Shown: positions 4,280-35,186 of the stretch, in pieces
How the letters are laid out: each line of letters begins with the position of its first letter
Numbering within the stretch: the first letter of the stretch is position 1
DNA from: Candidatus Magasanikbacteria bacterium CG_4_10_14_0_2_um_filter_33_14
Lineage (GTDB): Bacteria > Patescibacteriota > Patescibacteriia > Magasanikbacterales > UBA922
Length of the DNA stretch: 35,186 nucleotides
Assembly: GCA_002793035.1 (NCBI GenBank)
Contig: PFPL01000032.1
Span: 1-35,186 of the forward strand
Direction: 5' to 3'
The notes under the pieces: model-generated
Database searches by the model: none
What the model was told of the DNA's origin: nothing
The model's input: only the letters and a program-made list of their open reading frames with translations
Position numbers and translations under genes: made by a program

Positions 4280-4306
4280 AAAACCGTCATTTTGACGGTT
4301 TTTTGT
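4280..4306 (+). terminator. Rho-independent terminator after uvrA
   Basis: A 10-bp stem AAAACCGTCA/TGACGGTTTT (4280-4289 and 4293-4302) with a TTT loop is followed by T residues. It separates uvrA from the restriction-modification operon. Confidence 0.85.
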
Positions 4307-4310
4307 TTGG

Positions 4311-4339
4311 TTTACTTTTACCAACTTTTTTGGTATATT
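4311..4339 (+). promoter_or_regulatory. Candidate sigma-70 promoter of the mod-res operon
   Basis: TTTACT at 4311-4316 and TATATT at 4334-4339 are separated by 17 bases, directly after the uvrA terminator and 60 bases before the mod start. The -35 box is only a partial match, so this is tentative. Confidence 0.4.
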
Positions 4340-4399
4340 TATATCAGACGTATGATCTATTTTTATATAAAAATCGTTAAAAACAAATATAAATACATT

Positions 4400-6169
4400 A
4401 TGTCAAAAGAACAAGAAAAAGATAATAAAATACTTCGTTTAGAAAAAGAACTTGACCGTCTTAAAAAGAACTTGAAAAAACAAAAGTACGGTTTGGTTTG
4501 GATGGATGTTCCTGAAGCATTTGAGGATGATGTAGAAAATAAACTTCCTATCTTAAAAGAAAATCCAAAGTTGGCTATTAAAAATAATGACGGAAAGCCA
4601 ACCCATATTTTAATTGAGGGCGATAATTATCACGCTCTTACTTGTTTGAATTATACACATAAAGGAAAAGTGGATGTTATTTATATAGATCCGCCATACA
4701 ATACAGGGTCAGACGGTTTTAGATATAAAGATAAAAGGATTTTAGATAAGTTTCCGGACGGGACAGAAGTACCAAAGGATCATCCGTATAGACATAGTTA
4801 CTGGCTGTCTTTTATGAGAAAACGAGTTGAACTTTCTCGGGACATATTAAAAGAAGATGGTATTATTTTTATAAGCATTGGTGAAGATGAGCTTGCTCAA
4901 TTAAGATTTCTGTGTGATGAGATTTTTGGAGGAAGTAATTATATTTCAACAATATCTAGAGTTGCAAAAACAGCAAGTAATAAAGGTAGTTACTTTGCTC
5001 CTTCAGTGGATTTCATATTGTGTTATGCGAAAAACATATTGATGATAGATAGTTTTATTGATGAAGTAGATATTAAGCTTTATAAGAAAGAAGATGAAAA
5101 AGGATTTTATCGTGATGATGTAGCACTTTATCAATCTTCGCTAGATCCGATGAGAGGATGTACTAATCAAAGATATTATATTGAATGTCCTGATGGTTCC
5201 TTGGTACTTCCTCCGGGTAAAGTAGAACCAAAATTAAAAAAAGATGCACAACATATAAAGCCAGAAACAGCTGAAGATAAGGTGTGGAGGTGGAGTTATA
5301 AAACATATCTAGAAAAAAAAGAGTTATTAGTTTTCAAAAATACTAAAACTTCCCCATTATTAGATGAGAAAGGATTGAAGGCAAAATGGAATATCTATAC
5401 AAAAAGTTATTTGAATGAAAGAAATAAAACTGGTACAGTCCCGAGAAATTATGTTGATAAGTTTATAAATAGAAAGGGTGCGGATTTACTTAAACGAATG
5501 GGAATTGATTTTAACTATTCAAAACCCGTTGAGCTAATAAAATGGTTGATAAAAATTGTAAACAAAGATAATTGTTTGGTTTTGGATTATTTTGCTGGGT
5601 CAGGCACGACAGGACAAGCAGTTATGGAATTGAATGATGAAAATGGCTCTCATCATCAATTTATTTTAGTAACCAACAACGAAGAAGTAGTGAACGGAAC
5701 AACACATAAAATAATGACTGATATTTGTTATCCAAGGATATCCAAAGTTATAAAGGGTTACAATGATGTTAAAAGTTTGGGTAATTCTATCAGGTATTAT
5801 TATACAGATTTTGTTGGTGAAAATAATATATTAGATGCCACAGATAAAGACAAAATCGAATTAGCTCACAATGCTGGTGAATTATTAGCAATTGCTGAAA
5901 ATACATTTGAATTGGTTAAGCAGGATAAGTATATGCAGATTTTTGAAAATGATAACCAGTATACAGCGGTTTATTTTAAAGAAGAAATGAACAAGTTGGA
6001 TGACTTTGTTGCCGAGGTAAAGAAATTAAAAAAAGATGTGTCAGTTTATATTTTCAGTTGGGAAGATGAAGCGATGTTTGATGATTTTGAGGGATTAAGT
6101 AATATCCGACTAAAAACAATTCCACAACCAATTGTGGAAATATACAAACAGATATACAACCTAATTTAG
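4400..6169 (+). CDS. mod: Type III restriction-modification DNA methyltransferase (Mod), N6-adenine
   Basis: Transfers a methyl group from S-adenosylmethionine to adenine in the recognition site and supplies sequence specificity to the type III complex. Catalytic motif IV is DPPY at residues 97-100, followed by NTGSDGF; the SAM-binding motif FAGSGTTG is at 398-405. Motif IV before motif I is the beta-class order typical of Mod proteins, and the roughly 300 residues between them hold the target-recognition region. At 589 residues it is close to the usual Mod size. An open frame runs upstream to 4292, but the ATG at 4400 (MSKEQ) is preferred because the upstream extension lies in the uvrA terminator and promoter region and has no family similarity. 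An N-terminal Lys/Glu-rich helix precedes the fold. res starts one base after its stop. Confidence 0.93.
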   Translation: MSKEQEKDNKILRLEKELDRLKKNLKKQKYGLVWMDVPEAFEDDVENKLPILKENPKLAIKNNDGKPTHILIEGDNYHALTCLNYTHKGKVDVIYIDPPYNTGSDGFRYKDKRILDKFPDGTEVPKDHPYRHSYWLSFMRKRVELSRDILKEDGIIFISIGEDELAQLRFLCDEIFGGSNYISTISRVAKTASNKGSYFAPSVDFILCYAKNILMIDSFIDEVDIKLYKKEDEKGFYRDDVALYQSSLDPMRGCTNQRYYIECPDGSLVLPPGKVEPKLKKDAQHIKPETAEDKVWRWSYKTYLEKKELLVFKNTKTSPLLDEKGLKAKWNIYTKSYLNERNKTGTVPRNYVDKFINRKGADLLKRMGIDFNYSKPVELIKWLIKIVNKDNCLVLDYFAGSGTTGQAVMELNDENGSHHQFILVTNNEEVVNGTTHKIMTDICYPRISKVIKGYNDVKSLGNSIRYYYTDFVGENNILDATDKDKIELAHNAGELLAIAENTFELVKQDKYMQIFENDNQYTAVYFKEEMNKLDDFVAEVKKLKKDVSVYIFSWEDEAMFDDFEGLSNIRLKTIPQPIVEIYKQIYNLI

Positions 6170-6170
6170 T

Positions 6171-8555
6171 ATGCAAGTTTTTAACTTATTAAGATTTCAA
6201 AAAAAAGCTGTTGAGGATTTACTGGAAATGTTTGTCCAAGTTTGGAAACAAGAAAAAAGAAAAATCCCAATGGTATTTAAGTCACCAACAGGAAGTGGTA
6301 AGACTTTTATGGTTGCCAATTTTATACGTGGTCTTAATCATTTGCCACAATGGAAAAGGGACAAGGCTTTTATTTGGATTACTTTCAATGATGATCTAGC
6401 AATGCAAAGTCGAGATAAGTTTATGCAGTACTTTGAAAATAATCTTGAAAATAATTTAGTGACAGTCAATGATATTAACAGAGGTAAGCTTTATGAAAAT
6501 GATATTTTATTTTTGAATTGGCAAAAGATTGTTTCAAAGAGTGCCGACAGTAGGGTTTTACGTCGTCCAGATGATGAAATGATGAGAAAAGAAAGTGGTT
6601 GTTATTGGGAAGACTTTTTAGAAAATACTCAAAAAGAGGGACGAGAAATTATTTTGATTATAGATGAAAGCCATAAGAATAAAGGTACTGACTTGGCAAA
6701 AAATGAAATTGATAAAATCAATCCAAAAATTGTCTTGCACATTAGTGCTACACCAGATCAAGATGATGAATTAGAGGCTTACAGAAATAAAAGTTTTTTG
6801 GAAGTTGAGAGAGAAAGTGTAGTTGGCGAGGGTTTGATAAAAGAAAGAATACTTGTTCAGACTGATGAGGACTTACAAAAATATAAAGGTAAGGATTTGG
6901 ATGAAGTGTTGCTAGATTTAGGAATGGCGAAACGTGAAGAATTAAAAGATGAATTGGAAAGAATGGGTAAAAATGTCAATCCTTTAATGCTTATTCAATT
7001 ACCAAATGATGATAAGAGTTTGATTGAAAATGGTGTTGATAAAACAAAAGAAAAAGTTGTTTGTGATTATTTGAGAAAGAAAGGTGTTAAAGATACCAAG
7101 ATAGCTAAATGGTTTGATGGACGACAGGAAAATATGGAGTTGGTAACTGAGAATGATGATGATACTGATTTTATGCTTTTCAAACAAGCCGCCGGAACGG
7201 GTTGGGATTGTCCAAGAGCTTGTGTGTTAGTTATGTTTAGAGAAATTAAAAAGGAAGTTTTTTACACACAAACAGTCGGACGTATTTTGCGTATGCCCGA
7301 ACCTCAGTTTAAGGACGATTATAAAAACAATGCTTTGTTGAATACAGGTTATTTGTTTACCAATTATAAAAGGAACAAAGTTCAAATACCCGATCAAAGT
7401 GAAAATAATAAGGCTGATATTTATCACGCTCATCCAAAAAAAGGAATTAAAAATATCGAGTTGCAATCAGCGTATATTTCAAGAGTAGATTATGGTGATA
7501 TACCTCGGTCGTTTGAGTTTCAAAAGAGTTTTGTGGCTTCAATGGATAAAGCCTTTGGATTATCAAAGGAGGACATATTAAACAAGGCAAATGCCCTTAA
7601 AAAGCTCGAAAAAGCGAGTATAGACCTTTCAGGACATCTAACCAATAAAATCATTGCAAACGCTCAATTTGAGGATTTTGACCAAATAGAGATTGATTTC
7701 AATGAGAAAGGTATTGATGTTGATTTGGATATGTCCACAAATGACGTGGAGAAAACTTTTAACTTTATTTGTTATCAATTATTGAAAGAACAGACGGATG
7801 AACAAGCAAAGTTTACAAATATCGCTCGTTCTTGGAGTGTATTAAAATCAGGTATTCGTATTTGGATGAAAAGTGTTTTTGGAGAGGATAGTGATTTTTA
7901 TTATCGTGTGTTTGTGGCAGATATAAACAAGGGGGCAAGTAGTAAGTTTAGACCAGCAATTACAAAAGCGTTAAGAGATTTCAAACCGACAGCTAAAAAA
8001 CTTTTGGAAAAGAAACAAAAAGAACAAGAAGAAAGAGAAGCTCCAATTTTTACCATACAAAAAGAATATGGATATACGGAAGATTACGAAGAAGTATCGC
8101 AAAAACTTTGTGCCCTTGATAGTTTTTATGTTTTACGAGATTACAAAGGTAAGGTCAACGAAATGAAGTTTAAGGATTATATTGATGTAAAAGGTAAAGA
8201 GATTGAGTGGTGGTTTAAGAATGGTGATTATGGTAAATTGCATTATGCTATAAAATATTTTAATACTGATGAACAAAAAGAAGAATTGTTTTATCCTGAT
8301 TGGATTATTCAATTTAAGGATGGACGAATTGGTATCTTTGATACTAAAGAGGGTGATACTGCCACATCACAAGAAACAAAAGACAAAGCGTTAGCCCTGT
8401 TAAAACGATTAAAAGAATTGGGGAAGAAGTTTGTTGGTGGTATAACAATTTTTGAGAACGGTGTTTGGTATTACCATAGTTCTGAAAATTATGAATATGT
8501 AAAAGGTAAAGTTGGAGAGGATAAAAATTGGAAATTATTTGAAGAATTATTTTAA
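6171..8555 (+). CDS. res: Type III restriction enzyme Res subunit (SF2 helicase plus endonuclease)
   Basis: ATP-driven translocating/cleaving subunit that works with Mod on unmodified DNA. Helicase motifs appear in order: Walker A SPTGSGKT (38-45), DESH (165-168), SATP (192-195), GTGWDCP (342-348) and QTVGRILRMP (367-376), the last two being typical of type III Res. A PD-(D/E)xK-like nuclease motif is visible near the C-terminus: PD at 709-710 and DTK at 724-726. At 794 residues it is somewhat shorter than the classic enzymes of about 970 residues, but all catalytic parts are present. It starts one base after the mod stop, consistent with translational coupling. Confidence 0.94.
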   Translation: MQVFNLLRFQKKAVEDLLEMFVQVWKQEKRKIPMVFKSPTGSGKTFMVANFIRGLNHLPQWKRDKAFIWITFNDDLAMQSRDKFMQYFENNLENNLVTVNDINRGKLYENDILFLNWQKIVSKSADSRVLRRPDDEMMRKESGCYWEDFLENTQKEGREIILIIDESHKNKGTDLAKNEIDKINPKIVLHISATPDQDDELEAYRNKSFLEVERESVVGEGLIKERILVQTDEDLQKYKGKDLDEVLLDLGMAKREELKDELERMGKNVNPLMLIQLPNDDKSLIENGVDKTKEKVVCDYLRKKGVKDTKIAKWFDGRQENMELVTENDDDTDFMLFKQAAGTGWDCPRACVLVMFREIKKEVFYTQTVGRILRMPEPQFKDDYKNNALLNTGYLFTNYKRNKVQIPDQSENNKADIYHAHPKKGIKNIELQSAYISRVDYGDIPRSFEFQKSFVASMDKAFGLSKEDILNKANALKKLEKASIDLSGHLTNKIIANAQFEDFDQIEIDFNEKGIDVDLDMSTNDVEKTFNFICYQLLKEQTDEQAKFTNIARSWSVLKSGIRIWMKSVFGEDSDFYYRVFVADINKGASSKFRPAITKALRDFKPTAKKLLEKKQKEQEEREAPIFTIQKEYGYTEDYEEVSQKLCALDSFYVLRDYKGKVNEMKFKDYIDVKGKEIEWWFKNGDYGKLHYAIKYFNTDEQKEELFYPDWIIQFKDGRIGIFDTKEGDTATSQETKDKALALLKRLKELGKKFVGGITIFENGVWYYHSSENYEYVKGKVGEDKNWKLFEELF

Positions 8556-18822: not shown

Positions 18823-19545
18823 TTAAAGATATTCCACTTCACTATCATCTAATCTTCTAATCCCTACATCATTTTCCACTTCTTCCAAAATCTGAGCCGC
18901 CAGTCCAGGCACACGAGCAATGATAAATATTCCATTTCCAATATTACTTTTCAAACCCATATCACAAAGTATAGCAGCGATAGCTCCGTCAGCATTGAGT
19001 GGTAATTTCTTAGATGATATTTCGTTTATATTTTTTTCTACTGCCAAAGCCATTTCACAATGTTGTCCAAAAATATTATTTTCTTTGGCTAGTTCAAACA
19101 ATTTTACAGAGCGTGGATCAGCATCACTAAAAAACTTATGTCCGTAACCCAAAACATACTGTTTCTTTTCTTTCATATCTTTCAATAATCCTGGCAAATC
19201 TTTTTCTTCTGCATGATTGTAAAAAAATTCCATTGCTTGTGAAATCACTACACCATGTCTTTCACCAAGACCAAGCAATCCAGCCGCTACTGAAGCATGC
19301 AAAGGATTCTTAGCAGAAGCTGAGATGCGAGCGTTCATAGCAGAAGCCGTGGCTGGACCATGATCAATCACAGAACTAAGAATAGCCTCAAACATTTTGC
19401 TTTGTTTTTCGTCTGGCTTATGCCCTGTCAGCAAGAAAAAAATATTTTGCGCAAAAGTATTTTCTGTCATTAATTTTTCTAATTTTTCACCACGAATTGT
19501 TTCTTCTCCTTTTTCTACTTTGGTTAGTTTTGTTTGAAATTTCAT
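18823..19545 (-). CDS. ccl: Citryl-CoA lyase / short citrate synthase-like protein
   Basis: The 240-residue protein matches the C-terminal citryl-CoA lyase part of ATP-citrate lyase and not a full citrate synthase (about 370-430 aa). It has DHGPA at 61-65, GERHG at 94-98, 'VLGYGHKFFSDADPRS' with the His at 136, 'LNADGAIAAILCDMG' around 183-197, and an RRLDD near the C-terminus. It would split citryl-CoA into acetyl-CoA and oxaloacetate, or run in reverse. It is the last gene of a minus-strand set with citryl-CoA synthetase-like subunits, 146 bases after the alpha subunit; that gap holds a GC-rich palindromic element. Short citrate synthase-like proteins of other function cannot be excluded from sequence alone. 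Confidence 0.82.
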   Translation of the reverse strand: MKFQTKLTKVEKGEETIRGEKLEKLMTENTFAQNIFFLLTGHKPDEKQSKMFEAILSSVIDHGPATASAMNARISASAKNPLHASVAAGLLGLGERHGVVISQAMEFFYNHAEEKDLPGLLKDMKEKKQYVLGYGHKFFSDADPRSVKLFELAKENNIFGQHCEMALAVEKNINEISSKKLPLNADGAIAAILCDMGLKSNIGNGIFIIARVPGLAAQILEEVENDVGIRRLDDSEVEYL

Positions 19546-19560
19546 ATGTTTTTTAATTAA

Positions 19561-19620
19561 TCCCGAACCGCTGAAAGACGGTTAGGCCTGCCTGCCGGCA
19601 GGGATCTGTAGATCCTGAAC
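19561..19620. repeat. GC-rich palindromic element between alpha subunit and lyase genes
   Basis: Three dyads stand in a row: AACCG/CGGTT (19566-19583), the 12-base palindrome CCTGCCGGCAGG (19591-19602), and GGATCT-GT-AGATCC (19602-19615). Base composition is sharply richer in G and C than the surroundings. It may be a mobile or regulatory repeat inserted in the operon. Confidence 0.65.
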
Positions 19621-19691
19621 ATGCTAATTAAATTATAATTTTGTTGAAGTGTTATAAATGTTATATCACTTCTTTTGTTGTAATTGTTTTT

Positions 19692-20588
19692 TTAAGAATA
19701 GGGCTTAATTAATTCTACCAAATCTTCATATCTGTCGGCAATCATCACACCAACTTCTGACAAAGCTTGAGATTTTTCAACAGCACCCTTGCCACGCTCG
19801 ACAATCGCTCCAGCATGACCGATATTCATACCTTCTGGCAAAGTACTCGCAAACTTACCACCGATATAAATCGCGAGAGGTTTTGTATATTCCTTATTTT
19901 TTATCAAATCAACTATTTCAAATTCATAACTTCCACCATGTTCACCAAAAATTATCACCGCTTTGGTCTGTTCGTCTTTCTCAAATAGTTTTAGTAAATC
20001 CGCATAAGTCGTACCCATAAGTAAATCACCACCAACATGCACGGCTGTACTTTGTCCCAGTCCAGCTTTCCTCACTTGCCAAGAAACTTCGTTGGTCATA
20101 CCACCCGAGCGAGAAATAATTCCAATACTACCTGGTGTAAATATTTCATCAGCCTGAGCTTTTGGTCCACCAACCACACCAATACGCCCAATACCTGGAG
20201 AAATATATCCGAGTGAACTTGGTCCAATAATCTGAATATTTTTCTCTCGTGCAGAGGCCAGACAATAAGCTGTGTCGCGAATTGGTACACGCTCAATGAT
20301 TGTATTGATTTGTGGGATACCAGCATCAATATCTTCAAGTATAGCTGCTTTGGCAGCAAACGGTGGCACGTAAATTGCTGTTGTTGTAATATCTGGAAAT
20401 TGTTCAACGGCTTCAGCTACCGTATTGAAAACTGGTTTACCAAGCACCTCTTCCCCACCTTTGCCAGGACGCACACCACCGACGACATTGGTGCCATAAT
20501 CCAGCATCGCTTTGGCCGCTTTTTCTCCTTCGTTGCCAGTGATACCTTGGACAAGGACTTTTGTTTGTTTGTTAATTAGAATTGGCAT
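19692..20588 (-). CDS. ccsB: Citryl-CoA/succinyl-CoA synthetase alpha-type subunit
   Basis: A 298-residue CoA-binding and ligase subunit. It has the Rossmann start 'VLVQGITGNEGEKAAKAM' (12-28), 'GGVRPGKGG', the CoA-contacting 'AIYVPP', and the phosphorylated His at 258 in GHAGAI. Key diagnostic residues are SRSGGMTNE at 159-167, where succinyl-CoA synthetases have SRSGTLTYE and ATP-citrate lyases SRSGGMSNE, and GEHGGSYEFE at 215-224, close to the lyase GEIGGTEEY. Together with the beta gene and a citryl-CoA lyase this favours citrate as substrate. A conventional succinyl-CoA synthetase remains the alternative. The gene starts 7 bases after a small membrane-protein gene. Confidence 0.85.
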   Translation of the reverse strand: MPILINKQTKVLVQGITGNEGEKAAKAMLDYGTNVVGGVRPGKGGEEVLGKPVFNTVAEAVEQFPDITTTAIYVPPFAAKAAILEDIDAGIPQINTIIERVPIRDTAYCLASAREKNIQIIGPSSLGYISPGIGRIGVVGGPKAQADEIFTPGSIGIISRSGGMTNEVSWQVRKAGLGQSTAVHVGGDLLMGTTYADLLKLFEKDEQTKAVIIFGEHGGSYEFEIVDLIKNKEYTKPLAIYIGGKFASTLPEGMNIGHAGAIVERGKGAVEKSQALSEVGVMIADRYEDLVELIKPYS

Positions 20589-20595
20589 AATTACT

Positions 20596-21117
20596 TTATT
20601 TGATACTAAAATTTAATACAAAATTTTCAGAAGATCCATAAACACAAATTTCTTTAAAATTAAACTGCCCTTCACCTGATAGTTTTGCCTTATATAATAC
20701 ATGGCTATAAAATCCAGAAAAATACGGATTTTCTTGACGTAATACTATATTATTTTCTTTTTGTTTTTTATTGTCTATATCATTAATTATTCTTACAACT
20801 TTACCAGTATCCTCTATATAATCATTATCATAAGTAAGCTTAGTATAATAACAAGAAAGGAACCCTGTTTTTTGCCGATCTAAAATTTTTTTTATAGCTA
20901 TACTTTTGTATTTTGCTCCTATGGATGATAGATAAAAATAATCTCCCACTTTCAAATCACAAACTTGTTCAGAAAAAGGATCACAAACTTTATAAGTTAT
21001 ACTTTTTTTTGGGAAAAAATATTGAAAAAAATAAACAGGAAAACCAACAAAAAATTCTGTGATAGACAAAAAAACAAAAACTATAACTAAAATTTTTAAA
21101 TATTTCTTATAATTCAT
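20596..21117 (-). CDS. Hypothetical membrane-anchored protein inside the citryl-CoA operon
   Basis: I do not recognise the family. The 173-residue product has an N-terminal hydrophobic segment (about residues 8-35, 'ILVIVFVFLSITEFF' then Phe/Tyr-rich) followed by an extracytoplasmic-looking domain with several Cys: 'YKVCDPFSEQVCDL', 'FLSCYY', 'FKEICVYG'. The alternating hydrophobic pattern suggests beta structure. It lies 5 bases after the beta subunit and 7 before the alpha subunit, so it must be co-transcribed with them, yet it has no evident metabolic role. It is AT-rich like its neighbours. Insertion of an unrelated gene between the subunits is one explanation. Confidence 0.7.
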   Translation of the reverse strand: MNYKKYLKILVIVFVFLSITEFFVGFPVYFFQYFFPKKSITYKVCDPFSEQVCDLKVGDYFYLSSIGAKYKSIAIKKILDRQKTGFLSCYYTKLTYDNDYIEDTGKVVRIINDIDNKKQKENNIVLRQENPYFSGFYSHVLYKAKLSGEGQFNFKEICVYGSSENFVLNFSIK

Positions 21118-21122
21118 ATTAT

Positions 21123-22343
21123 TTATATATTAATCATATCAGCCAAAACTTGAGCAGTATCACTCATACTTGTTTCTTTACCAAAAATTTTTATATTCAA
21201 ATTATTTCTCTTAGCACAATCTTCCAACAGTTTCATTCCATCTTTGTCATGAGGTCCAGCACGACGTACGACAATTGGATAAGTCGGTTTGATTTCGTCG
21301 AGTGCATCTACAATGCCTTTGAAAGTTTCTTCCACATTGGTAAAGTTGGCGACAACACCACACATCCACAACCCTTTGATACCCGGTTTAGACAAAACAA
21401 TTTTAGTAAGTGCATATACTTTTTCACGAGGAGGATTGCCAGAGTATTCAGTATAATTGGCCGGTTCTAATCCGACTTTTTTGAGAGCGTCCATGTTAGC
21501 AATACTAGCTCCACCACCATTCAAGATAAGCGCAATATCACCTTCTAATTCAATATACTTGCCGGCCGTACCTTGATAATATTTTTCACCTTTATCAATC
21601 TCTTGCACAGCAATTTCGCGCTCAGTCGCCGGACGACAAAGCATCGTGCGAGATTCAAACAAATCCCAATCAGTGATAGTACCAGAATCTAGTCCTTTTT
21701 CTTTGGCGCGTTCTTGAGCCTCTTTATTGTGACGATAAAAAGCATCGTCGTCTAGTGCCACTTTGGCATCCAGCGCCATTATTTCACCAGAAGTTGTTTT
21801 GACAAGTGGATTTATTTCTACCAGACGAGTGTCTTCTGAGAGAAAACAATTCCACAGACTCTTGGCCGTTTCCAAAAATTCTGCAGGTAATTCTAGATTC
21901 CCTGCTAATTCTTTTTCTCTAATATCCAAAAGTTTTTTATAAATTTTGTCTTCAGCCACATCTTCAATATCCATACCACCTTCCGAGCTAAAAACTAATA
22001 CAGGTTGTTTCTTGTTTGTATCGTAAGTGATAGATAAATAATTTTCTGATTCGATATTTATTTTTTCAGTTAGCAAAATAGAAGCTACATATTGCCCACA
22101 AATAGACATATTGAAAATCTCATCAACTGCTTTTTCTACTTCTTCTAAATTACTACAAAATTTAATACCATTATTTTTACCACGTTTGCCAGAGAGTACT
22201 TGAGCTTTAACGACAACTTCTTCTAATCCCAACTTTCTGTAAGCATCAGCAATATTATCGCCACGTCTGACGACTTCTCCCACAGGAATTATGATACCAT
22301 GTTTTTCTAGCAATTCTCTACCTTCAAATTCGTATAGATTCAT
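21123..22343 (-). CDS. ccsA: ATP-grasp citryl-CoA synthetase-like beta subunit (ATP-citrate lyase N-terminal homologue)
   Basis: The 406-residue protein has an ATP-grasp half ('VVVKAQVLSGKRGKNNGI' at 43-60, EINPL at 176-180) and a CoA-ligase half. The second half carries ATP-citrate-lyase features, not those of SucC: GGGAS at 276-280, ANYTEYSGNPP at 295-305, ANFTNVEETFKGIV at 332-345, VRRAGP at 359-364 and FGKETSM at 387-393. SucC has GGGAT and GGIVRCD-type sequences in these places. It would activate citrate to citryl-CoA with ATP together with the alpha subunit. It lies 11 bases after a GNAT gene and opens the citryl-CoA block. Confidence 0.87.
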   Translation of the reverse strand: MNLYEFEGRELLEKHGIIIPVGEVVRRGDNIADAYRKLGLEEVVVKAQVLSGKRGKNNGIKFCSNLEEVEKAVDEIFNMSICGQYVASILLTEKINIESENYLSITYDTNKKQPVLVFSSEGGMDIEDVAEDKIYKKLLDIREKELAGNLELPAEFLETAKSLWNCFLSEDTRLVEINPLVKTTSGEIMALDAKVALDDDAFYRHNKEAQERAKEKGLDSGTITDWDLFESRTMLCRPATEREIAVQEIDKGEKYYQGTAGKYIELEGDIALILNGGGASIANMDALKKVGLEPANYTEYSGNPPREKVYALTKIVLSKPGIKGLWMCGVVANFTNVEETFKGIVDALDEIKPTYPIVVRRAGPHDKDGMKLLEDCAKRNNLNIKIFGKETSMSDTAQVLADMINI

Positions 22344-22354
22344 AAATCAAATTA

Positions 22355-22690
22355 TTAAAAAAAATTTATTCTAAATTCAAGACCATGTTCTTCAAAACCA
22401 TTTTTTTTATACCAGCCATGTACTACTTCTCGTTCTTTACGACTTGTGGCCAAAAATTTGTAACAACCAGCTTCTTTTGCACCTGCTATTGTCTTTTTCA
22501 ACAACTCAGTACCCAAACCTTGTCCACGATAATCCTCATCAACATATAAATCTTCCAAAAGTCCATAAGGATCATCATGCAAATCATTTTTTATAATATA
22601 AATATAAGCACGTGCTACTTCCTTACCCTCTTTTTCTACAAAATACTTTAAAGCTTGGACATTATTAATTTCTTTTTTTTGTATTTCCAT
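22355..22690 (-). CDS. GNAT family N-acetyltransferase
   Basis: A 111-residue minimal GNAT fold. The acetyl-CoA-binding motif A is clear: 'LYVDEDYRGQGLGTELLKK', followed by 'FLATSRKEREVVHGWYKKNGFEEHG', the typical C-terminal strand-helix. The acceptor substrate cannot be inferred. It sits 4 bases after yvcK and 11 bases before the citryl-CoA synthetase beta gene, so it belongs to the same transcript. Confidence 0.85.
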   Translation of the reverse strand: MEIQKKEINNVQALKYFVEKEGKEVARAYIYIIKNDLHDDPYGLLEDLYVDEDYRGQGLGTELLKKTIAGAKEAGCYKFLATSRKEREVVHGWYKKNGFEEHGLEFRINFF

Positions 22691-22694
22691 AACT

Positions 22695-23660
22695 TTATTT
22701 TAAACCCATAATTTTTCCAAATGGTTCTACCAATTTATCAGGTGCTAGACCACCTCCAGCCTTTTCAAAATCAACTTCCCAAATTTCATTATCTAATAAA
22801 TTTTCTTTATCACAAGGAACAAGTTCCCAACCACGTATTTTATATTTCTTTTTTTCATCTTGATTCAACTTATGATTATCATAAATTACCAAATCAATTT
22901 TTCTACCCAAATAACTTTCCAAAGCTAAAACGGCTTCACTAAAAGTCTTAGGTCCAGTCTCTCCATCTAAATGGCGAATATTACCAAAAATATAAATTAT
23001 TTTTGCTTTTGATTTTTCTATAGTTTCTTTGAATCCTTTTGGCAATGTAGTCGCAATTATACTAGTGTAGAGATCCCCAGGTCCTAAAAAAATATAATCA
23101 GCCTTTTCCAAAGCTTGTTTAGTTTCCACATAAATTTCTGGAGACTCTTTTGAGTTTTCTTTTTCAGACCAGACTTTTTTTATTTTCAAATCTCTGTCGT
23201 AATTTGGTTCATCTATCTCATTTTCACCAAATATGATATCTCCATTTTCTAGCTCTGCTACAAGATTGTTTATTTCCAAAGTATTGGGATAGACATGTGC
23301 CATAGATTCTACAGACTGTTCAAATGCACGTAGGGCTGACATAAAATCACCATATTGAGAAGTCAAAGTCAAAAATAAATTACCAAGATTATGCCCCTCT
23401 AATTTTTCTAAATTATTGAATCTGTTTTTATAAAAAATCTTTTTGAGCAGTAAATAATCATAGGGTGAAAGTGATAACACAGCACGCATAATGTCTCCTG
23501 GAGGCAATACACCAAATTCTTTTCGCAACCGACCACTAGATCCTCCAGAATCACTCATACCAACAACAACAGACAAATTTATCTGAGAAATAAATTTTTT
23601 CAAAGCATTGACTGTAATAGCTGTACCATTTCCTCCACCAATTGTAACAACATTTTTCAT
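22695..23660 (-). CDS. yvcK: YvcK/CofD-like gluconeogenesis factor
   Basis: The 321-residue protein begins 'VVTIGGGNGT' and continues with 'GMSDSGGSSGRLRKEFGVLPPGD', 'GHNLGNLFL', 'FLGPGDLYTSI' and 'IYIFGNI', all typical of the YvcK/UPF0052 family. In Bacillus, YvcK binds UDP-GlcNAc and is needed for growth on gluconeogenic carbon and for normal cell-wall synthesis; it lacks proven enzyme activity. Its position between glmS (UDP-GlcNAc pathway) and citryl-CoA genes fits a link between wall precursors and central carbon. A candidate promoter lies upstream, with its -35 inside a tandem repeat. Confidence 0.92.
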   Translation of the reverse strand: MKNVVTIGGGNGTAITVNALKKFISQINLSVVVGMSDSGGSSGRLRKEFGVLPPGDIMRAVLSLSPYDYLLLKKIFYKNRFNNLEKLEGHNLGNLFLTLTSQYGDFMSALRAFEQSVESMAHVYPNTLEINNLVAELENGDIIFGENEIDEPNYDRDLKIKKVWSEKENSKESPEIYVETKQALEKADYIFLGPGDLYTSIIATTLPKGFKETIEKSKAKIIYIFGNIRHLDGETGPKTFSEAVLALESYLGRKIDLVIYDNHKLNQDEKKKYKIRGWELVPCDKENLLDNEIWEVDFEKAGGGLAPDKLVEPFGKIMGLK

Positions 23661-23775: not shown

Positions 23776-25611
23776 CTACTCGACAGTGACAGACTTCGCT
23801 AAGTTACGAGGTCTATCCACATCTCTTCCCAAAGCCACCGCTGTATGATAAGCAAACAATTGCAAAGCTACACTATTCAAAAGTGGTTCTAATAATTCCA
23901 TAGTTTCTGGTACATAGATAATATCTTCAGACAAATCTTTGGCACCATCATCACCTTCTGTTGCAATAAGAATTATTGGAGCTTTACGAGCTTTTATTTC
24001 CTCTACATTACTTCTCATCTTATCATAGAGTTGATCTTTGGTCATGATAGCAAATATTGGGAAGTCAGTACTAAGCAAGGCGATATGACCATGCTTTAGC
24101 TCACCACCAGGGAAAGCATCAGCGTGAACATAAGATGTTTCTTTTAGTTTTAGTGCTCCTTCCAAAGCCACAGGATAGTTCACACCACGTCCAATAAACA
24201 TCATACTCTTGGTATCTTTGTATTTTTCCGCAATGACTTTTATTTTATCACTTTCTGCCAAAATCTTTTCCATTTTTTCTGGAATTTCAAGTAATGCTTT
24301 CAAAATTCTTTCACCTGTTGCCAGACTAGTTCTTTTGAGACGTCCGAATTGCAAAGCATAAAGTAAGAGTACTGCAGCTGTATTGGTATAAGCTTTGGTA
24401 GAAGCTACCGCTAGCTCTGGACCGGCATGAATATAAGTTCCCCCCTCAGTTTCACGAGCAATACTTGATCCCACGACATTGACTACACCACGCACAAAAG
24501 CACCTTTACGCTTGGCTTCACGCAAAGCTGCCAAAGTATCTGCCGTTTCACCAGATTGTGAAAGTACGAAAACCAAAGTATTTTCGTCAACAATCGGATC
24601 ACTATAACGAAACTCACTTGCTACTTCCACAGTTGTTGGAATACCTGCCAAACGTTCAAAAGCATATTTTCCAGTCATACCAGCATAAGAAGCCGTACCA
24701 CAAGCGATAATCATTATTTTATTAATATTATGCATTTCTTCTTCTGTCATGTTGAGTCCTCCCAAAAAAGAAATTCCATTTTTGAGATCATAACGACCAC
24801 GAATTGCATCCACAAAAACTCTTGGCTGATCAAAAATTTCTTTGAGCATAAAATGAGGGAACCCTTGCTTTTGGGCTTCGGCTTCATCCCATTCTATTTC
24901 TTCAATATTTTTTTGGACAATTTCATCTTTGATATTAAAGGTATTCATCTTACCGCCATTAATTTCTAATACTTCATTATCGTCCAAGAAAATTACTTTT
25001 TTGGTATAAGCCAAAATTGGTGAAGCGTCACTAGCAATAAAAAACTCATCACTACCATTGTCAGTGTTTACTCCTACGACAAGTGGACTACCGAGACGTG
25101 CTGCCACAATAGTATCTGGATGATCACTATGTATGGCTACGAGAGCATAAGTACCACGCACCAAAGACAAAGCTTTTTCTACGGCCAAACGTAAATCACC
25201 AGTATAATTATTTTCGATTAAGTGTGCCAAAATTTCAGTATCAGTTTCTGTTTTGAAGTTGTGTTTTTCACCCAAATCTTTTTTTATCTCACGATAATTT
25301 TCTATAATACCGTTATGAACAATCACAAGTTTTTCATCACAACCAAAATGAGGATGTGCATTTTCTTCAGTCACACCACCATGGGTAGCCCAACGAGTGT
25401 GAGCAATTCCCACATGTCCTTCAAATTTTTCATTTTTTAATTTGTCAGCCAAATTATCTATACGACCAACTGATCGGATTCTTTTGATATTAGAATTTTC
25501 AATAATAGCTACACCAGCACTATCATAACCACGGTATTCCAAACGACGCAACCCTTTGATCAAGACTGGTAAAGCTTCTTTTTTGCCAATGTAACCGACA
25601 ATTCCGCACAT
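23776..25611 (-). CDS. glmS: Glutamine--fructose-6-phosphate aminotransferase (isomerizing)
   Basis: Makes glucosamine-6-phosphate from fructose-6-phosphate and glutamine, the entry step to UDP-GlcNAc. The mature N-terminus MCGIVGYIG gives the catalytic Cys, followed by 'LEYRGYDSAG', 'HTRWATHG' and 'HNGIIENY' of the glutaminase domain. Two SIS domains follow ('ACGTASYAG', 'SQSGETADTLAAL', 'FIGRGVNYPVALEGALKLKE') and the C-terminus is the typical 'LAKSVTVE'. At 611 residues it is full length. It is 23 bases after a GlmU-like nucleotidyltransferase gene, supporting a UDP-GlcNAc unit. No glmS ribozyme is possible in the short upstream gap. Confidence 0.98.
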   Translation of the reverse strand: MCGIVGYIGKKEALPVLIKGLRRLEYRGYDSAGVAIIENSNIKRIRSVGRIDNLADKLKNEKFEGHVGIAHTRWATHGGVTEENAHPHFGCDEKLVIVHNGIIENYREIKKDLGEKHNFKTETDTEILAHLIENNYTGDLRLAVEKALSLVRGTYALVAIHSDHPDTIVAARLGSPLVVGVNTDNGSDEFFIASDASPILAYTKKVIFLDDNEVLEINGGKMNTFNIKDEIVQKNIEEIEWDEAEAQKQGFPHFMLKEIFDQPRVFVDAIRGRYDLKNGISFLGGLNMTEEEMHNINKIMIIACGTASYAGMTGKYAFERLAGIPTTVEVASEFRYSDPIVDENTLVFVLSQSGETADTLAALREAKRKGAFVRGVVNVVGSSIARETEGGTYIHAGPELAVASTKAYTNTAAVLLLYALQFGRLKRTSLATGERILKALLEIPEKMEKILAESDKIKVIAEKYKDTKSMMFIGRGVNYPVALEGALKLKETSYVHADAFPGGELKHGHIALLSTDFPIFAIMTKDQLYDKMRSNVEEIKARKAPIILIATEGDDGAKDLSEDIIYVPETMELLEPLLNSVALQLFAYHTAVALGRDVDRPRNLAKSVTVE

Positions 25612-25634: not shown

Positions 25635-26387
25635 TTATTGGTTCAATCTTTTCTTCGCCTCTTCCAACTGTTCCAAAGTATTTATACCAAACCACTCTTG
25701 AGGATTCTCTAATATCACAATATCATATTTTTCTTTTTTGTCTCTTACCATTGCCAGAGCCGTTGGGAGACCATATTCTCCAAGCTTACGTAATTTTGGC
25801 ATAGTTGGGAACATATCTTCATACCAATATCTATCAAAACAAAAAGTACCAGTACTAATCTCATTTATTTTTTCTTGTTCTTCTGTCAAATATTCTTTTT
25901 CAATAATCTCCACATCACCATTTTCATGTCGTACTATTCTACCAAGTTGAAAAGGATTCTCTACTTTGGCAGTCAAAAGAGATACTTTATTACCACCCAA
26001 GATATGATTGCTCATAAATTTTTCCAAAGTCTCTGCTGTATAAAAAGCGCTATCATCTCCTGCCAACACCAAAACATTTTCAATATTTTCCGGTAACTTT
26101 TTGATACCAGTAAAAGCAGCGTGAGCAGTACCTAAGAGCTCTGTTTGCTCTGCATAAGACACTTTATCTCCAAAATAATCTTCTACTATTTCTTTCTTGA
26201 AACCAACAACTAAAACAATTTGTTCTTTGCTCAATCCCATTTTTTCTAAAGTATTTACAATATAGCTGACAATAGGTTTGCCTCCAATTTCCAACATAAC
26301 TTTTGGTCTATCAGTACAATTGAGACGAGTACCTTTGCCTGCAGCCAAGATTACAACTCCTACATTATTTAAGTTTACTTGTGACAT
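25635..26387 (-). CDS. Sugar-1-phosphate nucleotidyltransferase, GlmU N-terminal-like
   Basis: A 250-residue single-domain NTP transferase: LAAGKGTRL at 14-22, Lys 29 in 'DRPKVM', 'GTAHAAF' and 'LAGDDSAF' with the metal-binding Asp. It resembles the uridylyltransferase half of GlmU but lacks the C-terminal left-handed beta-helix acetyltransferase. With glmS downstream, UDP-GlcNAc synthesis is the most likely pathway; another sugar nucleotide is possible. Its first 23 bases overlap the end of the HAD gene, indicating coupled translation. Confidence 0.87.
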   Translation of the reverse strand: MSQVNLNNVGVVILAAGKGTRLNCTDRPKVMLEIGGKPIVSYIVNTLEKMGLSKEQIVLVVGFKKEIVEDYFGDKVSYAEQTELLGTAHAAFTGIKKLPENIENVLVLAGDDSAFYTAETLEKFMSNHILGGNKVSLLTAKVENPFQLGRIVRHENGDVEIIEKEYLTEEQEKINEISTGTFCFDRYWYEDMFPTMPKLRKLGEYGLPTALAMVRDKKEKYDIVILENPQEWFGINTLEQLEEAKKRLNQ

Positions 26388-27000
26388 ATTCTTTTATTTC
26401 TGTTAAAGTTTTAAAATATTTTAATCCACTTTTTTTGTATTCTTCCTCAGAAAAATTTTGGGATTGTTTTAATATTATTTGCATATTTGGGAAAAATCTT
26501 TTTATCTGTAGAGCTTCCTCTATTTTATCATCAATAAAAAATATTTTTTCTTGTTGCCTACCTTCAGAAATTTCTTTTACAACCATTTCCTTTAATTTAC
26601 CCAAGAAAAATAATTGATCAAAATATTTTTCTATTTCACAATTATTTACTTTTATTTCTTGGAAGTCTTTGTCTCCTAAGCTGAGTAGATGCAGTTCTTG
26701 ATGAAAACTTTGCAAATATTCCAAGAAAATTTTAGTATCAGGAAAAAGAAATTTTTTTATTTTTGATTTAACTTCATTGAGATTTTCCAAAATTTGTTTT
26801 TTATTGAAATTTTTCTTTTCCAATATATCAGCATGCCTTTCAAATGAATAAGAAAAATTTCTATCTGGCAACATTCTTGCTTCTTTGTAAGTCTGCCAAA
26901 ACAATTTTTCATCTACTCCTATATTTTTTAAACTATATGCTAATTCTTTTTTAAAATTTTGAGTATCAAATAATGTATCATCGAAATCTATTATAAACAT
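26365..27000 (-). CDS. HAD-superfamily hydrolase
   Basis: The ATG at 27000 (MFIIDFDDTLF) is preferred over one at 27033 because the latter overlaps the TrmB gene and adds a tail without family similarity. Motif I is DFDDT at 5-9; 'LLSLGDKDFQ' supplies the motif II region, a Lys follows, and 'IFFIDDKIEEA' gives the acidic motif IV. The 211-residue length fits a phosphatase of sugar phosphates or nucleotides. It starts 7 bases after the TrmB stop and overlaps the nucleotidyltransferase gene by 23 bases. The substrate is unknown. Confidence 0.82.
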   Translation of the reverse strand: MFIIDFDDTLFDTQNFKKELAYSLKNIGVDEKLFWQTYKEARMLPDRNFSYSFERHADILEKKNFNKKQILENLNEVKSKIKKFLFPDTKIFLEYLQSFHQELHLLSLGDKDFQEIKVNNCEIEKYFDQLFFLGKLKEMVVKEISEGRQQEKIFFIDDKIEEALQIKRFFPNMQIILKQSQNFSEEEYKKSGLKYFKTLTEIKEYVTSKLK

Positions 27001-27007
27001 AGCAGTT

Positions 27008-27742
27008 TTACAAAGTTTTCCAAACCTGATCAAATATCATCTTCTGTGTCTCACTAATACCTTGATTTTCAATAATTACTCCAACCAAGTTACCTTTGGC
27101 ATCAAAAGATATATAAGCAGTTTTACCTGGATAAATAAAAATATAAGTTGGGGTTTCACTATCTTGATTGAGCCACTTTCTTTCGTCGAGTCCACGCAAT
27201 TCACCACCTTTACCCATAGCAATGACTTTGACGGCTATATTTTTGGCAATGCGAGCATCACTAAAAGAAGGAAAATCTTCGTATAAATGTTCACGTACTC
27301 CTTCGGCCGAATAAACACGATACATTTTGTCCTCAAAAGTTTCACAGACAAGTAAGACATCTTCTAAAATATCTTTGATATTTTCACCCTTAAAATATTT
27401 GGCGACAGGTCTATGACCACCAGAATTATACAAAGCTTGTAATTCTGGAATTACTCTATCGACATTTTTGTTTATTATTTTCAATTCTTGTTGTTTTTTG
27501 TCTACCATTTTTTTCAAACTATCAGGATCATCAGCTACAAAAAGTTGTTTAGTTTCTTCCTTAAAAAACCTTACAACTTCCTTTTCTTGTAAATCTTTGA
27601 GAACTTCATAGACTTGACCTCTATTCATATCCAGATTTTCTGAAAGTTTACGAACAGAACTTGGACCTAAAGCAAGAAGAACCAAGTATACCTTGGCTGA
27701 TTTGTCAGAAAATCCTATTTTTTTGAGAAGATTTATATCCAT
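27008..27742 (-). CDS. TrmB-family transcriptional regulator
   Basis: An N-terminal winged helix (about residues 1-65: 'LLKKIGFSDKSAKVYLVLLALGP', 'VRKLSENLDMNRGQVYEVLKDLQEK') is followed by a coiled linker and a C-terminal effector-type domain ('MYRVYSAEGVREHLYEDFP', 'YISFDAKGNLVGVIIEN'). TrmB proteins are best known as sugar-responsive regulators in archaea and are also common in Patescibacteria. It heads the minus-strand HAD, nucleotidyltransferase and glmS cluster and lies near fba. The upstream promoter overlaps a dyad, suggesting autoregulation. The ligand is unknown. Confidence 0.85.
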   Translation of the reverse strand: MDINLLKKIGFSDKSAKVYLVLLALGPSSVRKLSENLDMNRGQVYEVLKDLQEKEVVRFFKEETKQLFVADDPDSLKKMVDKKQQELKIINKNVDRVIPELQALYNSGGHRPVAKYFKGENIKDILEDVLLVCETFEDKMYRVYSAEGVREHLYEDFPSFSDARIAKNIAVKVIAMGKGGELRGLDERKWLNQDSETPTYIFIYPGKTAYISFDAKGNLVGVIIENQGISETQKMIFDQVWKTL

Positions 27743-32200: not shown

Positions 32201-34195
32201 TTAATTTTTTTTATTTCTAGAAAATAACTTTTTAAATTTTGCTAATAAACCTAGTTTTGATTTTTCTACAACTTCTGTACTTGGTTCGTTTATAACACTT
32301 TTATCTGCTTGTTCAATATCTTCTATCATGGACAACCCACCTTCTGAACCTCCCTTTGAAATAGAAAGCCCTCCCCCTACAACTGACACTAAAATTTTTG
32401 ATCTCTCACGACCTATACGGTCCTTAATACTATCTTGAAATCCATATTGTTGCATTCTAGCCATTATGAGACCAGCATATTCTCGTAAACTATCGATACT
32501 ACAAGATTGTATAAAAATAGACATTTCAGAAGGATCATTTCCAATCTTTTTAATCAATTCTGTACCCGTCTTCTTCATCAAGATTCCTTTATCTGAAAGC
32601 TGATTAAAAATTCTTCCAGCACTAGAAGAGCTATCCGGAGGATTATTTATTAAATGATAATTAACATACTCAATGACCATAGGATGAATTGACTTCGCAT
32701 TTTTTGATCTTTCTACAATTTCATAAAGTCTACGATACAACATAACTTCAACAACTTCATTTTCTATTACTCTTTTCAATAATTCAGTTAAATATTCTTT
32801 TTTCCTAAGTTTTTGCAAGTTATCATCAGTAACAATTTTTTCAAAAGCTTTAGCTGATATGCTAGCATCGAGGACCACAGATTTTAATAATATCTGAATT
32901 TCATCTGGACCTAATTTCCCAGAATTAATTATTTCATGATCAGACAATACATCTTTGGCTGTTTTACTATATTCTGCTATTTTGTTAACAATCTTAGCTA
33001 ATTGTTCCTTTGAAATAAGAAGAGATTCACGTCGACAATACTTTTTCAAAAACTCTTCGGCATCAGAGACTCTGACAGACACAAAATCTATCAGAAATCC
33101 TAATATTTCTGGACCTAAAACAGTAATAATATTATCCTCAGGACCCTCTAAAAACAAACGACTTAATTCTTTCAGAATATCTGGAAAGCGAAGAGATCTT
33201 CTTACATAATAATCAGCCAAAAGTCTATAATAATTATTTTTAGAATAATTTTTCAAAATAACTTTTTGAAAAAAATCCCAGTCTCCAGCAAAATCACCCA
33301 CCAATCTCCAAGTACACTCTGTCACTAAAGATTCAGACCTAAACTTTTCAGGTTGGCCAACCAACAAATTCCACATTCTGAGTTTTTCCTCCTTACTATT
33401 TTTACTAGAAAAAAAATCTTTTACAAACCCTTCCAACAAGGGGCTTGTTTCATCACGTTGCAACAAAGTTTCTATACATTTTTTGAGTTCTTTTCCTTTT
33501 CCTTCATAGGCGACCTCTCCTAGCAATTTATTCCACAGATCTTTTGGAATCTTTTTCTCAGAACCACTTTGCAAAATATTAAACAACAACAAACCAAGAT
33601 ATTTTCCTGCATTGAGAGGCTTCCTAGATTTTTTTGGTTTTCTTCTTCTTTGTTCTCTCAAATTATCGATAGAAGAAAAAAGTTCATCAACTAAACTTTG
33701 AAAATATTCTATAGGTACTGTATCAAAATTATCCGATGTAGAAAGAATGGCACGCAAGTCTGTATTGATTGCTCCTAGATTTCTAGAATTTCGGCCATGG
33801 CCTATTCTGATCTGCCAATCAAATGTTTTTTTGACTTCCAAAGAAATAGCTGGACAAGATATGAGTTTATTAAAAGTATATTCTATATAAATATCATATT
33901 TATCAGGGGAATGCTCTCTTAGAATTTCCAAATTTTCTTCGATGCTCTTGCTATCGTCAAAACCTTTTAGACCAGAGTATTCCATCTGTGCCCCCAAAGA
34001 CATTTTCACATCTCTAGTATATGGGTCTTCCTCAACTTCTGGAGAAGAATCCTCTGTCTCAGATTCTTCAATTTCTAATCCTTCAACGTATTCATCTTTT
34101 ACAGACTCATCTAGACCTTCTACATATTCTTTCTTTTCAGGTTCAGCAAAACCCACATCTCCTCCATGACTATGTTGTCCTCTTACTGGTTCCAT
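32201..34195 (-). CDS. Large helical hypothetical protein with GGLS-type tail
   Basis: I do not recognise the family. The 664-residue product starts with an acidic, low-complexity segment (about 1-70) in which 'YVEGLDESVKDEYVEGLE' repeats YVEGL. A long, mainly helical region follows (about 70-590) with the look of HEAT/ARM-like repeats; there is no catalytic motif. Near the end comes 'VVGGGLSISKGGSEGGLSMIEDIEQ', followed by a basic end 'LLAKFKKLFSRNKKN'. The GGLS motif also ends the upstream neighbour. No signal peptide is seen, so a cytoplasmic scaffold or membrane-associated protein is possible. It is 71 bases after the neighbour, with a terminator hairpin in the gap. Confidence 0.75.
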   Translation of the reverse strand: MEPVRGQHSHGGDVGFAEPEKKEYVEGLDESVKDEYVEGLEIEESETEDSSPEVEEDPYTRDVKMSLGAQMEYSGLKGFDDSKSIEENLEILREHSPDKYDIYIEYTFNKLISCPAISLEVKKTFDWQIRIGHGRNSRNLGAINTDLRAILSTSDNFDTVPIEYFQSLVDELFSSIDNLREQRRRKPKKSRKPLNAGKYLGLLLFNILQSGSEKKIPKDLWNKLLGEVAYEGKGKELKKCIETLLQRDETSPLLEGFVKDFFSSKNSKEEKLRMWNLLVGQPEKFRSESLVTECTWRLVGDFAGDWDFFQKVILKNYSKNNYYRLLADYYVRRSLRFPDILKELSRLFLEGPEDNIITVLGPEILGFLIDFVSVRVSDAEEFLKKYCRRESLLISKEQLAKIVNKIAEYSKTAKDVLSDHEIINSGKLGPDEIQILLKSVVLDASISAKAFEKIVTDDNLQKLRKKEYLTELLKRVIENEVVEVMLYRRLYEIVERSKNAKSIHPMVIEYVNYHLINNPPDSSSSAGRIFNQLSDKGILMKKTGTELIKKIGNDPSEMSIFIQSCSIDSLREYAGLIMARMQQYGFQDSIKDRIGRERSKILVSVVGGGLSISKGGSEGGLSMIEDIEQADKSVINEPSTEVVEKSKLGLLAKFKKLFSRNKKN

Positions 34196-34266: not shown

Positions 34267-35043
34267 TTAATCAACTTGGCCTTTTTTTGATTCATCATCT
34301 ACCAAAGAAAGTTCTCCATTATTTCCAATATCAGCAAGAGATAAACCACCCTTATTTCCTGAAAAGCTATTTTTCATTTTTTCAGCCACTTCTCTTAGTT
34401 TTTCTACTATATCTGTTCTGCCTCTTGTTCTAAATTGAGCTATCCACTCTGGTTCTATTGTAGTTTTCTTAAAAAATCCTACTTCAGTAAAAATTTGTCT
34501 TAAATTCTCACCTTCCAATAAAGTTTCAAACATACTATCTGGAACTAAAGATAATTTGTCTTTTGGTAAAACGTTAAGTAAAAAGTCTACTATTATTTTT
34601 TTATCTTTGGTCTGTTCAAATCTATCGATTATTTTAATTAAATACTTCTCTCCATATTCTTTTATTATCCAACATAAACGGCGGTGATCTTTAATAAGAC
34701 TATCAATCAATTTGTTTAAAATATTTTCATCAGTTAAATATTTATCAGGACACCTCGTTAATACATCATATGTATAAGATGAATCATCTGCATAGCGTGA
34801 ATGACCTAAATATTGGACAATATTATCAATAAATCTATCAAGATTGTCTTTATTTTCTCCTGTCAAATACCTTTCAGGCCACCCTTTTACGGCCCAAAAG
34901 GAATTCCATGTATCATAACACGTTTCTTTAACTAATTTAGCTAAATGATTCTTATTTTCTCTTTTATCACCTTTAAATTTTCTATCCTCATACACTTTCA
35001 CATGAACATCATATTGTTCTCCTCCACTTTTACCTTCTCCCAT
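34267..35043 (-). CDS. Hypothetical helical-repeat protein with GGLS/GELS tail
   Basis: The ATG at 35043 (MGEGKSGGEQ) is preferred over 35112, because the longer form would run through the 5S rRNA terminator hairpin. The 258-residue protein has recurring helical units: 'RYLTGENKDNLDRFIDNI' and 'KYLTDENILNKLIDSLI', then a weaker 'KYLIKIIDRFEQ'. This suggests an alpha-solenoid. The end reads 'GNKGGLSLADIGNNGELSLVDDES', with two copies of a G-[GE]-L-S-L motif also found in the next gene. I know no function. It is the first protein gene after the 5S rRNA on the same strand. Confidence 0.72.
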   Translation of the reverse strand: MGEGKSGGEQYDVHVKVYEDRKFKGDKRENKNHLAKLVKETCYDTWNSFWAVKGWPERYLTGENKDNLDRFIDNIVQYLGHSRYADDSSYTYDVLTRCPDKYLTDENILNKLIDSLIKDHRRLCWIIKEYGEKYLIKIIDRFEQTKDKKIIVDFLLNVLPKDKLSLVPDSMFETLLEGENLRQIFTEVGFFKKTTIEPEWIAQFRTRGRTDIVEKLREVAEKMKNSFSGNKGGLSLADIGNNGELSLVDDESKKGQVD

Positions 35044-35055
35044 ATATTTATCAAT

Positions 35056-35086
35056 AAAAAAATAAGTATATCTATTATACTTATTT
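35056..35086 (-). terminator. Terminator of the rRNA operon
   Basis: AAATAAGTATA (35060-35070) and TATACTTATTT (35076-35086) form an 11-bp stem, followed on the minus strand by T residues. It lies about 47 bases after the 5S 3' end. Confidence 0.75.
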
Positions 35087-35132
35087 CTATAGCTAATTAC
35101 AAATTTTGACAATAAAAAAATAGGTACAAAGT

Positions 35133-35186
35133 CTGAGCGCTGGCCTACTCTCCCCTTACGAGTACCATCGGCGATAACGAGCTTAG
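35133..35186 (-). rRNA. rrf: 5S ribosomal RNA, 3' part
   Basis: The reverse complement of the window end reads CTAAGCTCGTTATCGCCGAT, then GGTACT and GGGGAGAGTAGG, the conserved 3' half of bacterial 5S rRNA (loop E and helix IV/V regions). The gene continues beyond the window. The exact 3' end is approximate. Confidence 0.9.

Follow-up and report, generated by a model that had tools for sequence, protein, structure and literature searches.

The stretch of DNA analysed here (the window, 35,186 nucleotides) is the entire contig PFPL01000032.1 (C38 in our numbering) of Candidatus Magasanikbacteria bacterium CG_4_10_14_0_2_um_filter_33_14 (GCA_002793035.1), whose genome of 1.10 Mb (hereafter the host genome) is an estimated ~97% complete. 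Judged from their sequences, three genes on its minus strand encode a split citryl-CoA synthetase (CCS, subunits CcsA and CcsB) and a free citryl-CoA lyase (CCL), with a citrate site like that of ATP-citrate lyase (ACL), and they stand at the end of an operon that also holds genes for UDP-N-acetylglucosamine (UDP-GlcNAc). The nearest named contigs all belong to Ca. Magasanikbacteria, with lyases 91-93% identical to this one, in agreement with the patescibacterial origin that an initial annotation had proposed from the letters alone. That annotation had also called the three reading frames, the motifs in beta and alpha and the 240-residue lyase, all of which we recovered in the following arrangement:

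21123-22343, minus strand: CcsA-like citryl-CoA synthetase beta (large) subunit, 406 aa, ATP-grasp plus citrate-binding domain
20596-21117, minus strand: open reading frame of 173 aa between CcsA and CcsB, unrelated to the enzyme
19692-20588, minus strand: CcsB-like citryl-CoA synthetase alpha (small) subunit, 298 aa, PF02629 and PF00549
18823-19545, minus strand: free CCL, 240 aa, a short citrate-synthase-fold protein

The beta subunit matches PF08442 (5e-44) and, at its C terminus, the citrate-binding domain of the ATP-citrate-lyase type (PF16114 Citrate_bind, 2e-30, 106 bits versus a cut-off of 26.8). It carries the motifs EYSGNPP, VANFTNVEETFKGIV, VRRAGP and FGKET, its best PDB match is Hydrogenobacter CcsA (6hxq_B, 4e-63), and its citrate-site motifs EYSGNPP, ANFTN and VRRAGP are like those of ACL and unlike those of succinyl-CoA synthetase (SCS). 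The alpha subunit combines CoA-binding and CoA-ligase domains with the phosphohistidine motif GHAGAI and reads SRSGGMTNE, as in ACL and CCS, where the SucD of SCS has SRSGTLTYE; among its PDB matches two archaeal SucD structures marginally outscore CcsB (6hxq_A). The lyase scores 242 bits on NF004869 (citryl-CoA lyase, cut-off 212 bits), has CCL as its best PDB match (6hxp, 7e-52), and retains the catalytic H, H and D in the motifs DHGP, GYGHK and NADG; in its alignment the rows L072 and L080 are truncated alpha subunits and were disregarded. Unlike in ACL, where the lyase domain is fused to alpha, the two are here separate genes of 298 and 240 aa. That such residues distinguish ACL and CCS from SCS (SGGMTNE versus SGTLTYE), as initially claimed, held in our comparison: SCS controls were without the citrate-specific motifs found in CCS alpha and beta, and L075, a genuine SCS of patescibacterial origin that came up as a weak domain match, had no citrate signature whatsoever and no CCL in its 16-kb stretch. 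The expectation that automated annotation would name the genes sucC, sucD and citrate synthase proved wrong, NCBIfam assigning the lyase as citryl-CoA lyase and placing beta and alpha below the SucC and SucD cut-offs, respectively.

In the beta tree the fused ACLs form one group (100/100) and the SCS another (100/100), with the split enzymes of the Candidate Phyla Radiation (CPR) making a third of weak support (70/79) beside CcsA and SCS; Hydrogenobacter CcsA, the one CcsA reference, falls beside SCS (94/86). The alpha tree likewise separates SCS from ACL (100/100) and gives the CPR split enzymes no resolved placement. The sole Aquificales CCS reference in these trees was that taken from the PDB alignments. 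Together with the family matches, the PDB matches and the citrate-site residues, trees in which the SCS group leaves out both subunits support the initial identification as split CCS plus CCL, and on these sequence criteria the CPR split proteins are neither SCS nor ACL. A position of alpha and beta within SCS, which the initial annotation had named as counting against its reading, was not seen. Two further CCS/CCL sets from the same class or order (L073 and L074) are divergent, with shortened subunits and lyases of 191-221 aa, and the latter, situated amid genes for ribosomal proteins, shows very long branches.

The intervals between the three genes have features of their own. Pfam and NCBIfam searches gave no family match for the 173-aa reading frame at 20596-21117, and across relatives the gap between CcsA and CcsB is filled by differing unrelated reading frames: by eye a nudix-like protein in L064, a TPM-domain protein in L092, and in L082 a frame of 742 aa with no assigned family. 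The spacer between CcsB and CCL (19546-19691) is strongly structured (z -5.6) and contains the palindrome CCTGCCGGCAGG at 19591-19602, its sole copy within the window. A riboswitch was considered for this spacer and set aside with the palindrome taken as a repeat element, no Rfam search having been made; the lyase of L069 (11854-12618) includes LPAGRQGG, which looks like the CCTGCCGGCAGG repeat translated in frame.

The citrate genes are the last of an operon on the minus strand whose order (TrmB, HAD, GlmU uridylyltransferase half, GlmS, YvcK, GNAT, CcsA, CcsB and CCL, here with the 173-aa frame between CcsA and CcsB) is retained in nearly all loci of the family. Upstream of CcsA it comprises:

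27008-27742, minus strand: TrmB-family regulator at the operon head (PF01978, 5e-15)
26365-27033, minus strand: HAD-like hydrolase (PF13419, weak and under cut-off), its position conserved in family loci
25635-26387, minus strand: uridylyltransferase half of GlmU, 250 aa (PF00483; TIGR01173 positions 3-237 of 452)
23776-25611, minus strand: GlmS, glutamine-fructose-6-phosphate transaminase, 611 aa (TIGR01135, 768 bits, cut-off 418)
22695-23660, minus strand: YvcK, UDP-GlcNAc-binding protein family, CofD-like (TIGR01826, above cut-off)
22355-22690, minus strand: GNAT acetyltransferase, 111 aa (PF00583)

A promoter-like TTGACA-17-TATACT (11/12 matches, by consensus scoring only) lies just upstream of TrmB at 27786-27758 on the minus strand. 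Between YvcK and the GNAT there are 4 bp, and between the GNAT and CcsA 11 bp. The GlmU half is without the C-terminal acetyltransferase domain, and a full GlmU above the TIGR01173 cut-off was found in 0 of 46 genomes of the family (Ca. Magasanikbacteria). This family sample, a sample of 380 Patescibacteria across the phylum and the host genome were examined by single-family searches and through the stretches around matches; a search for relatives with the lyase alone returned two near relatives only.

Since the family's GlmU consists of the uridylyltransferase half only, an acetyltransferase is needed elsewhere, and the small GNAT is the obvious candidate. It has the acetyl-CoA motif R-x-x-G-x-G in the form RGQGLG, and in phmmer and profile searches several GNA1 structures are among its best matches, with 2dxq first and the GNA1 sequence matches ranking after an uncharacterised Agrobacterium protein. 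A role like that of GNA1, as glucosamine-phosphate N-acetyltransferase, is what we infer for it. Its distribution across the family can be set against that of possible acetyl-CoA sources: an orthologue is present in 42 of the 46 genomes, and 41 of these 42 contain CCS or ACL, a 2-oxoacid:ferredoxin oxidoreductase (OFOR) or 2-amino-3-ketobutyrate CoA ligase (Kbl). Among the four genomes without the GNAT, only G409 has such a source. The exception on the other side is G128, a single contig with no source, whose operon is without GNAT and YvcK and which has a GNAT copy elsewhere in the genome.

The citrate-binding domain was found in 26 of the 46 family genomes and, in any form, in 25 of the 380 sampled across the phylum (~6.5%), and with about half of the family possessing the enzyme, the initial view of it as an oddity for the lineage was too strong. 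The split form accounts for 24 of the 26, the other two (G385 and G386) having an unlinked, fused two-gene ACL; both forms are present elsewhere in the phylum. Where a family genome has no CCS, what stands in this operon is usually OFOR, threonine dehydrogenase (Tdh) with Kbl, or both, the OFOR alpha-beta-gamma genes being placed between the GlmU half and GlmS, and Kbl scoring above its cut-off. CCS/CCL, OFOR (if acting on pyruvate) and Tdh-Kbl all yield acetyl-CoA. There is a tendency towards mutual exclusion between the citrate enzymes and OFOR (OFOR in 6/26 genomes with CCS or ACL versus 13/20 of the others; Fisher p 0.007, a value that ignores relatedness among genomes that are not independent). 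A reading of the Kbl cluster as GlyA was dropped: the enzyme is Kbl, that is glycine C-acetyltransferase, and of the cluster's members only that of L070 is a serine hydroxymethyltransferase. Insertions were also seen in OFOR versions of the operon, a pyruvate kinase in one genome (L130, 12616-13635) and a type I asparaginase in another (L128, 11828-12820).

Other tested routes to acetyl-CoA are absent. In the host genome we detected no aconitase, citrate synthase, phosphotransacetylase (Pta), pyruvate dehydrogenase (PDH) E2 or OFOR, and the only SucD-like alpha subunit found there is CcsB itself. Pta, PDH E2 and aconitase, the last of which the initial annotation had suggested looking for, were each found in 0 of the 46 family genomes, and an ADP-forming acetyl-CoA synthetase in G381 alone.

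The link to amino-sugar genes extends to distant Patescibacteria. In a locus from another family (L070), GlmS, CcsA, CcsB, CCL, GNAT, YvcK and an archaeal-type GlmU stand in series, with their ends mostly overlapping; CcsA is directly preceded by GlmS in L071 and L072, overlapped by a lone GlmU acetyltransferase domain in L067, and has GlmU upstream in L069. Fused ACL has GlmS 2 bp away in L061 and a GNAT 3 bp away in L063. Overall, GlmS falls within the 16-kb stretch in ~5 of 17 family-level lineages, for which a rough binomial estimate of chance is ~6e-6.

Taken together we consider it probable, with real room for doubt, that CCS/CCL serves mainly to supply acetyl-CoA for the N-acetylation step on the way to UDP-GlcNAc, relatives drawing on exchangeable sources. 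In this scheme citrate would be taken up from outside, and CcsA, CcsB and CCL would convert citrate, ATP and CoA to acetyl-CoA, oxaloacetate, ADP and Pi. GlmS would make glucosamine-6-phosphate, which the GNAT could acetylate with the acetyl-CoA so derived, in place of the acetyltransferase domain that GlmU lacks here; once isomerised, the product would be turned by the GlmU half into UDP-GlcNAc for the cell wall, and YvcK may act as a UDP-GlcNAc-sensing partner. Relatives would replace CCS/CCL by OFOR or Tdh and Kbl in the same operon, or add these to it. We are evenly divided on the broader proposal that Patescibacteria possess UDP-GlcNAc operons with a dedicated acetyl-CoA module whose source (CCS/CCL or fused ACL, OFOR, Tdh-Kbl) is exchangeable, and the notion contained in it, that central carbon metabolism has there been reduced to feeding a single cell-wall N-acetylation step, could equally well prove right or wrong. 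The operon context, which the initial annotation did not include, points to acetyl-CoA for UDP-GlcNAc rather than to a role resembling the tricarboxylic acid (TCA) cycle.

Several observations weigh against this interpretation. The amino-sugar link is not universal in Patescibacteria, with no amino-sugar gene near CCS or ACL in L052-L058, L060, L065, L073 and L074, and the operons of G114, G411 and G414 hold CCS and OFOR together. GNATs are promiscuous, and a shallow AlphaFold model of this one (two sequences, pLDDT 75) gives a GNAT fold of middling confidence; in a fold search GNA1 does not stand out, GNA1s being among many near-equal matches with other GNATs tied. Genomes that appear to have neither GNAT nor source may simply lack that contig, and at ~97% completeness the absences from the host genome are provisional. 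Finally, no clear citrate importer was found in the host genome; a CitMHS match considered for this role is a tentative candidate and stands, along with a CBS protein, next to genes of a hydrogenase/complex-I-like cluster.

In that cluster (L143, 22-7428, on contig C55 of the host genome), the hydrogenase/complex-I-like membrane genes come first, and a CBS-domain protein and a transporter of the CitMHS/ArsB/MamN type follow them; in L084 and L090 a similar CBS and transporter pair is found immediately downstream of CCL. In G407 and G410 a CitMHS-type transporter stands just downstream of CCL, and the homologue in G410 also matches the NCBIfam models of MamN, ArsB and DASS, all under cut-off.

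The transporters of G407 and G410 fit with the foremost competing explanation, namely that a true CCS/CCL serves citrate catabolism, for carbon, energy and redox balance through the reduction of oxaloacetate, and that its UDP-GlcNAc neighbours are incidental. ACL lies distant from amino-sugar genes in many other Patescibacteria, and a report on a gracilibacterium proposes ACL together with citrate and malate use (PMC6851277). Against catabolism, with no Pta in the 46 genomes and G381 alone having an ADP-forming acetyl-CoA synthetase, there is no visible ATP-yielding exit for acetyl-CoA (acetate kinase alone was not searched), and the link to GlmS, GlmU and GNAT recurs in unrelated families with both enzyme forms; we regard this explanation as unlikely. 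Less likely still is that the pair acts on another acid, such as citramalate or 2-methylcitrate, and yet provides an acyl-CoA for acylation. Here specificity is read from residues alone, the CPR beta subunits have ANFTN where Hydrogenobacter CcsA has ANNTR, and their clade is a deep one; on the other hand, all citrate-site motifs compared match those of ATP-citrate lyases, and the lyase is above the citryl-CoA lyase cut-off.

Citrate cleavage is most likely the direction of the reaction. The initial annotation had allowed for both cleavage and citrate synthesis with ATP gain, and of these cleavage stands: with no aconitase, citrate synthase, Pta, PDH E2 or OFOR in the host genome, neither a TCA cycle nor ATP-gaining citrate synthesis is sensible. 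CCS and CCL do operate in the reverse TCA cycle of Hydrogenobacter, and chemically the reactions can run either way (PMC9802188), but given the lack of aconitase across the family and, in the host genome, of OFOR, a separate citrate synthase and any SucD-like alpha found other than CcsB, we give operation in reverse or within a reverse TCA cycle very little credence. A misidentified SCS next to an unrelated short citrate synthase, for which one could cite the SucD structures that head the matches of alpha and the SucC models matched by the N-terminal half of beta, is just as implausible against the separate 100/100 group of SCS and the true SCS of L075, with none of the signature residues and no CCL nearby.

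Of the known systems, CcsA/CcsB and Ccl of Hydrogenobacter thermophilus (6hxq, 6hxp) are likewise three separate proteins with the same domain make-up, and have the phosphohistidine, the citrate-binding domain and the lyase catalytic residues in common with those described here. The CPR proteins differ in their ACL-type ANFTN, their amino-sugar operon and the absence of a reverse TCA cycle, and the tree does not group the Hydrogenobacter CcsA with CPR CCS. ACL (AclA/AclB; Chlorobium 6hxj, and the fused patescibacterial enzymes of L052-L063, L076 and L077) shares the predicted reaction and the citrate-site residues, whereas its alpha and lyase are fused (~600 aa) and the beta tree sets it apart as a group with 100/100 support. 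In eukaryotes, GNA1 acts in the route to UDP-GlcNAc and ACLY supplies acetyl-CoA. By analogy, both the eukaryotic route and the one proposed here would combine citrate-derived acetyl-CoA, a GNAT acetylating glucosamine-6-phosphate and a separate uridylyltransferase, with the difference that ours is a bacterial operon with bacterial-type GlmS and a GlmU half, and that its GNAT, at just 111 aa, has a putative substrate.

Citrate cleavage has been proposed for CPR bacteria before, from a putative two-subunit ATP citrate lyase of Gracilibacterium (PMC6851277) and an enrichment of aclAB in Saccharimonadia (PMC12577380); the portions of these two papers at hand make no mention of a split form or an amino-sugar link. 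A search of open-licence papers found no connection of CCS or ACL with UDP-GlcNAc genes in Patescibacteria, and prior notice is possible. The most informative additions are the UDP-GlcNAc link and the exchange of acetyl-CoA sources. Patescibacteria are without most of central metabolism, and the origin of their acetyl-CoA is rarely explained. If correct, our proposal would explain why a TCA-type enzyme is retained in organisms without a TCA cycle, would link host-derived citrate to growth, and could be tested by isotope tracing. Studies of how ATP-citrate lyase arose from CCS and CCL also gain a deep branch in this split, ACL-like enzyme.

Elsewhere in the window, a pair resembling type III restriction-modification (methyltransferase, then helicase/nuclease; judged by eye) occupies 4292-8555. 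A C-terminal stretch of GGLS type is common to the proteins at 34267-35184 and 32201-34195, at the contig end, and to one at L143 13115-13903, which adjoins the transporter cluster.

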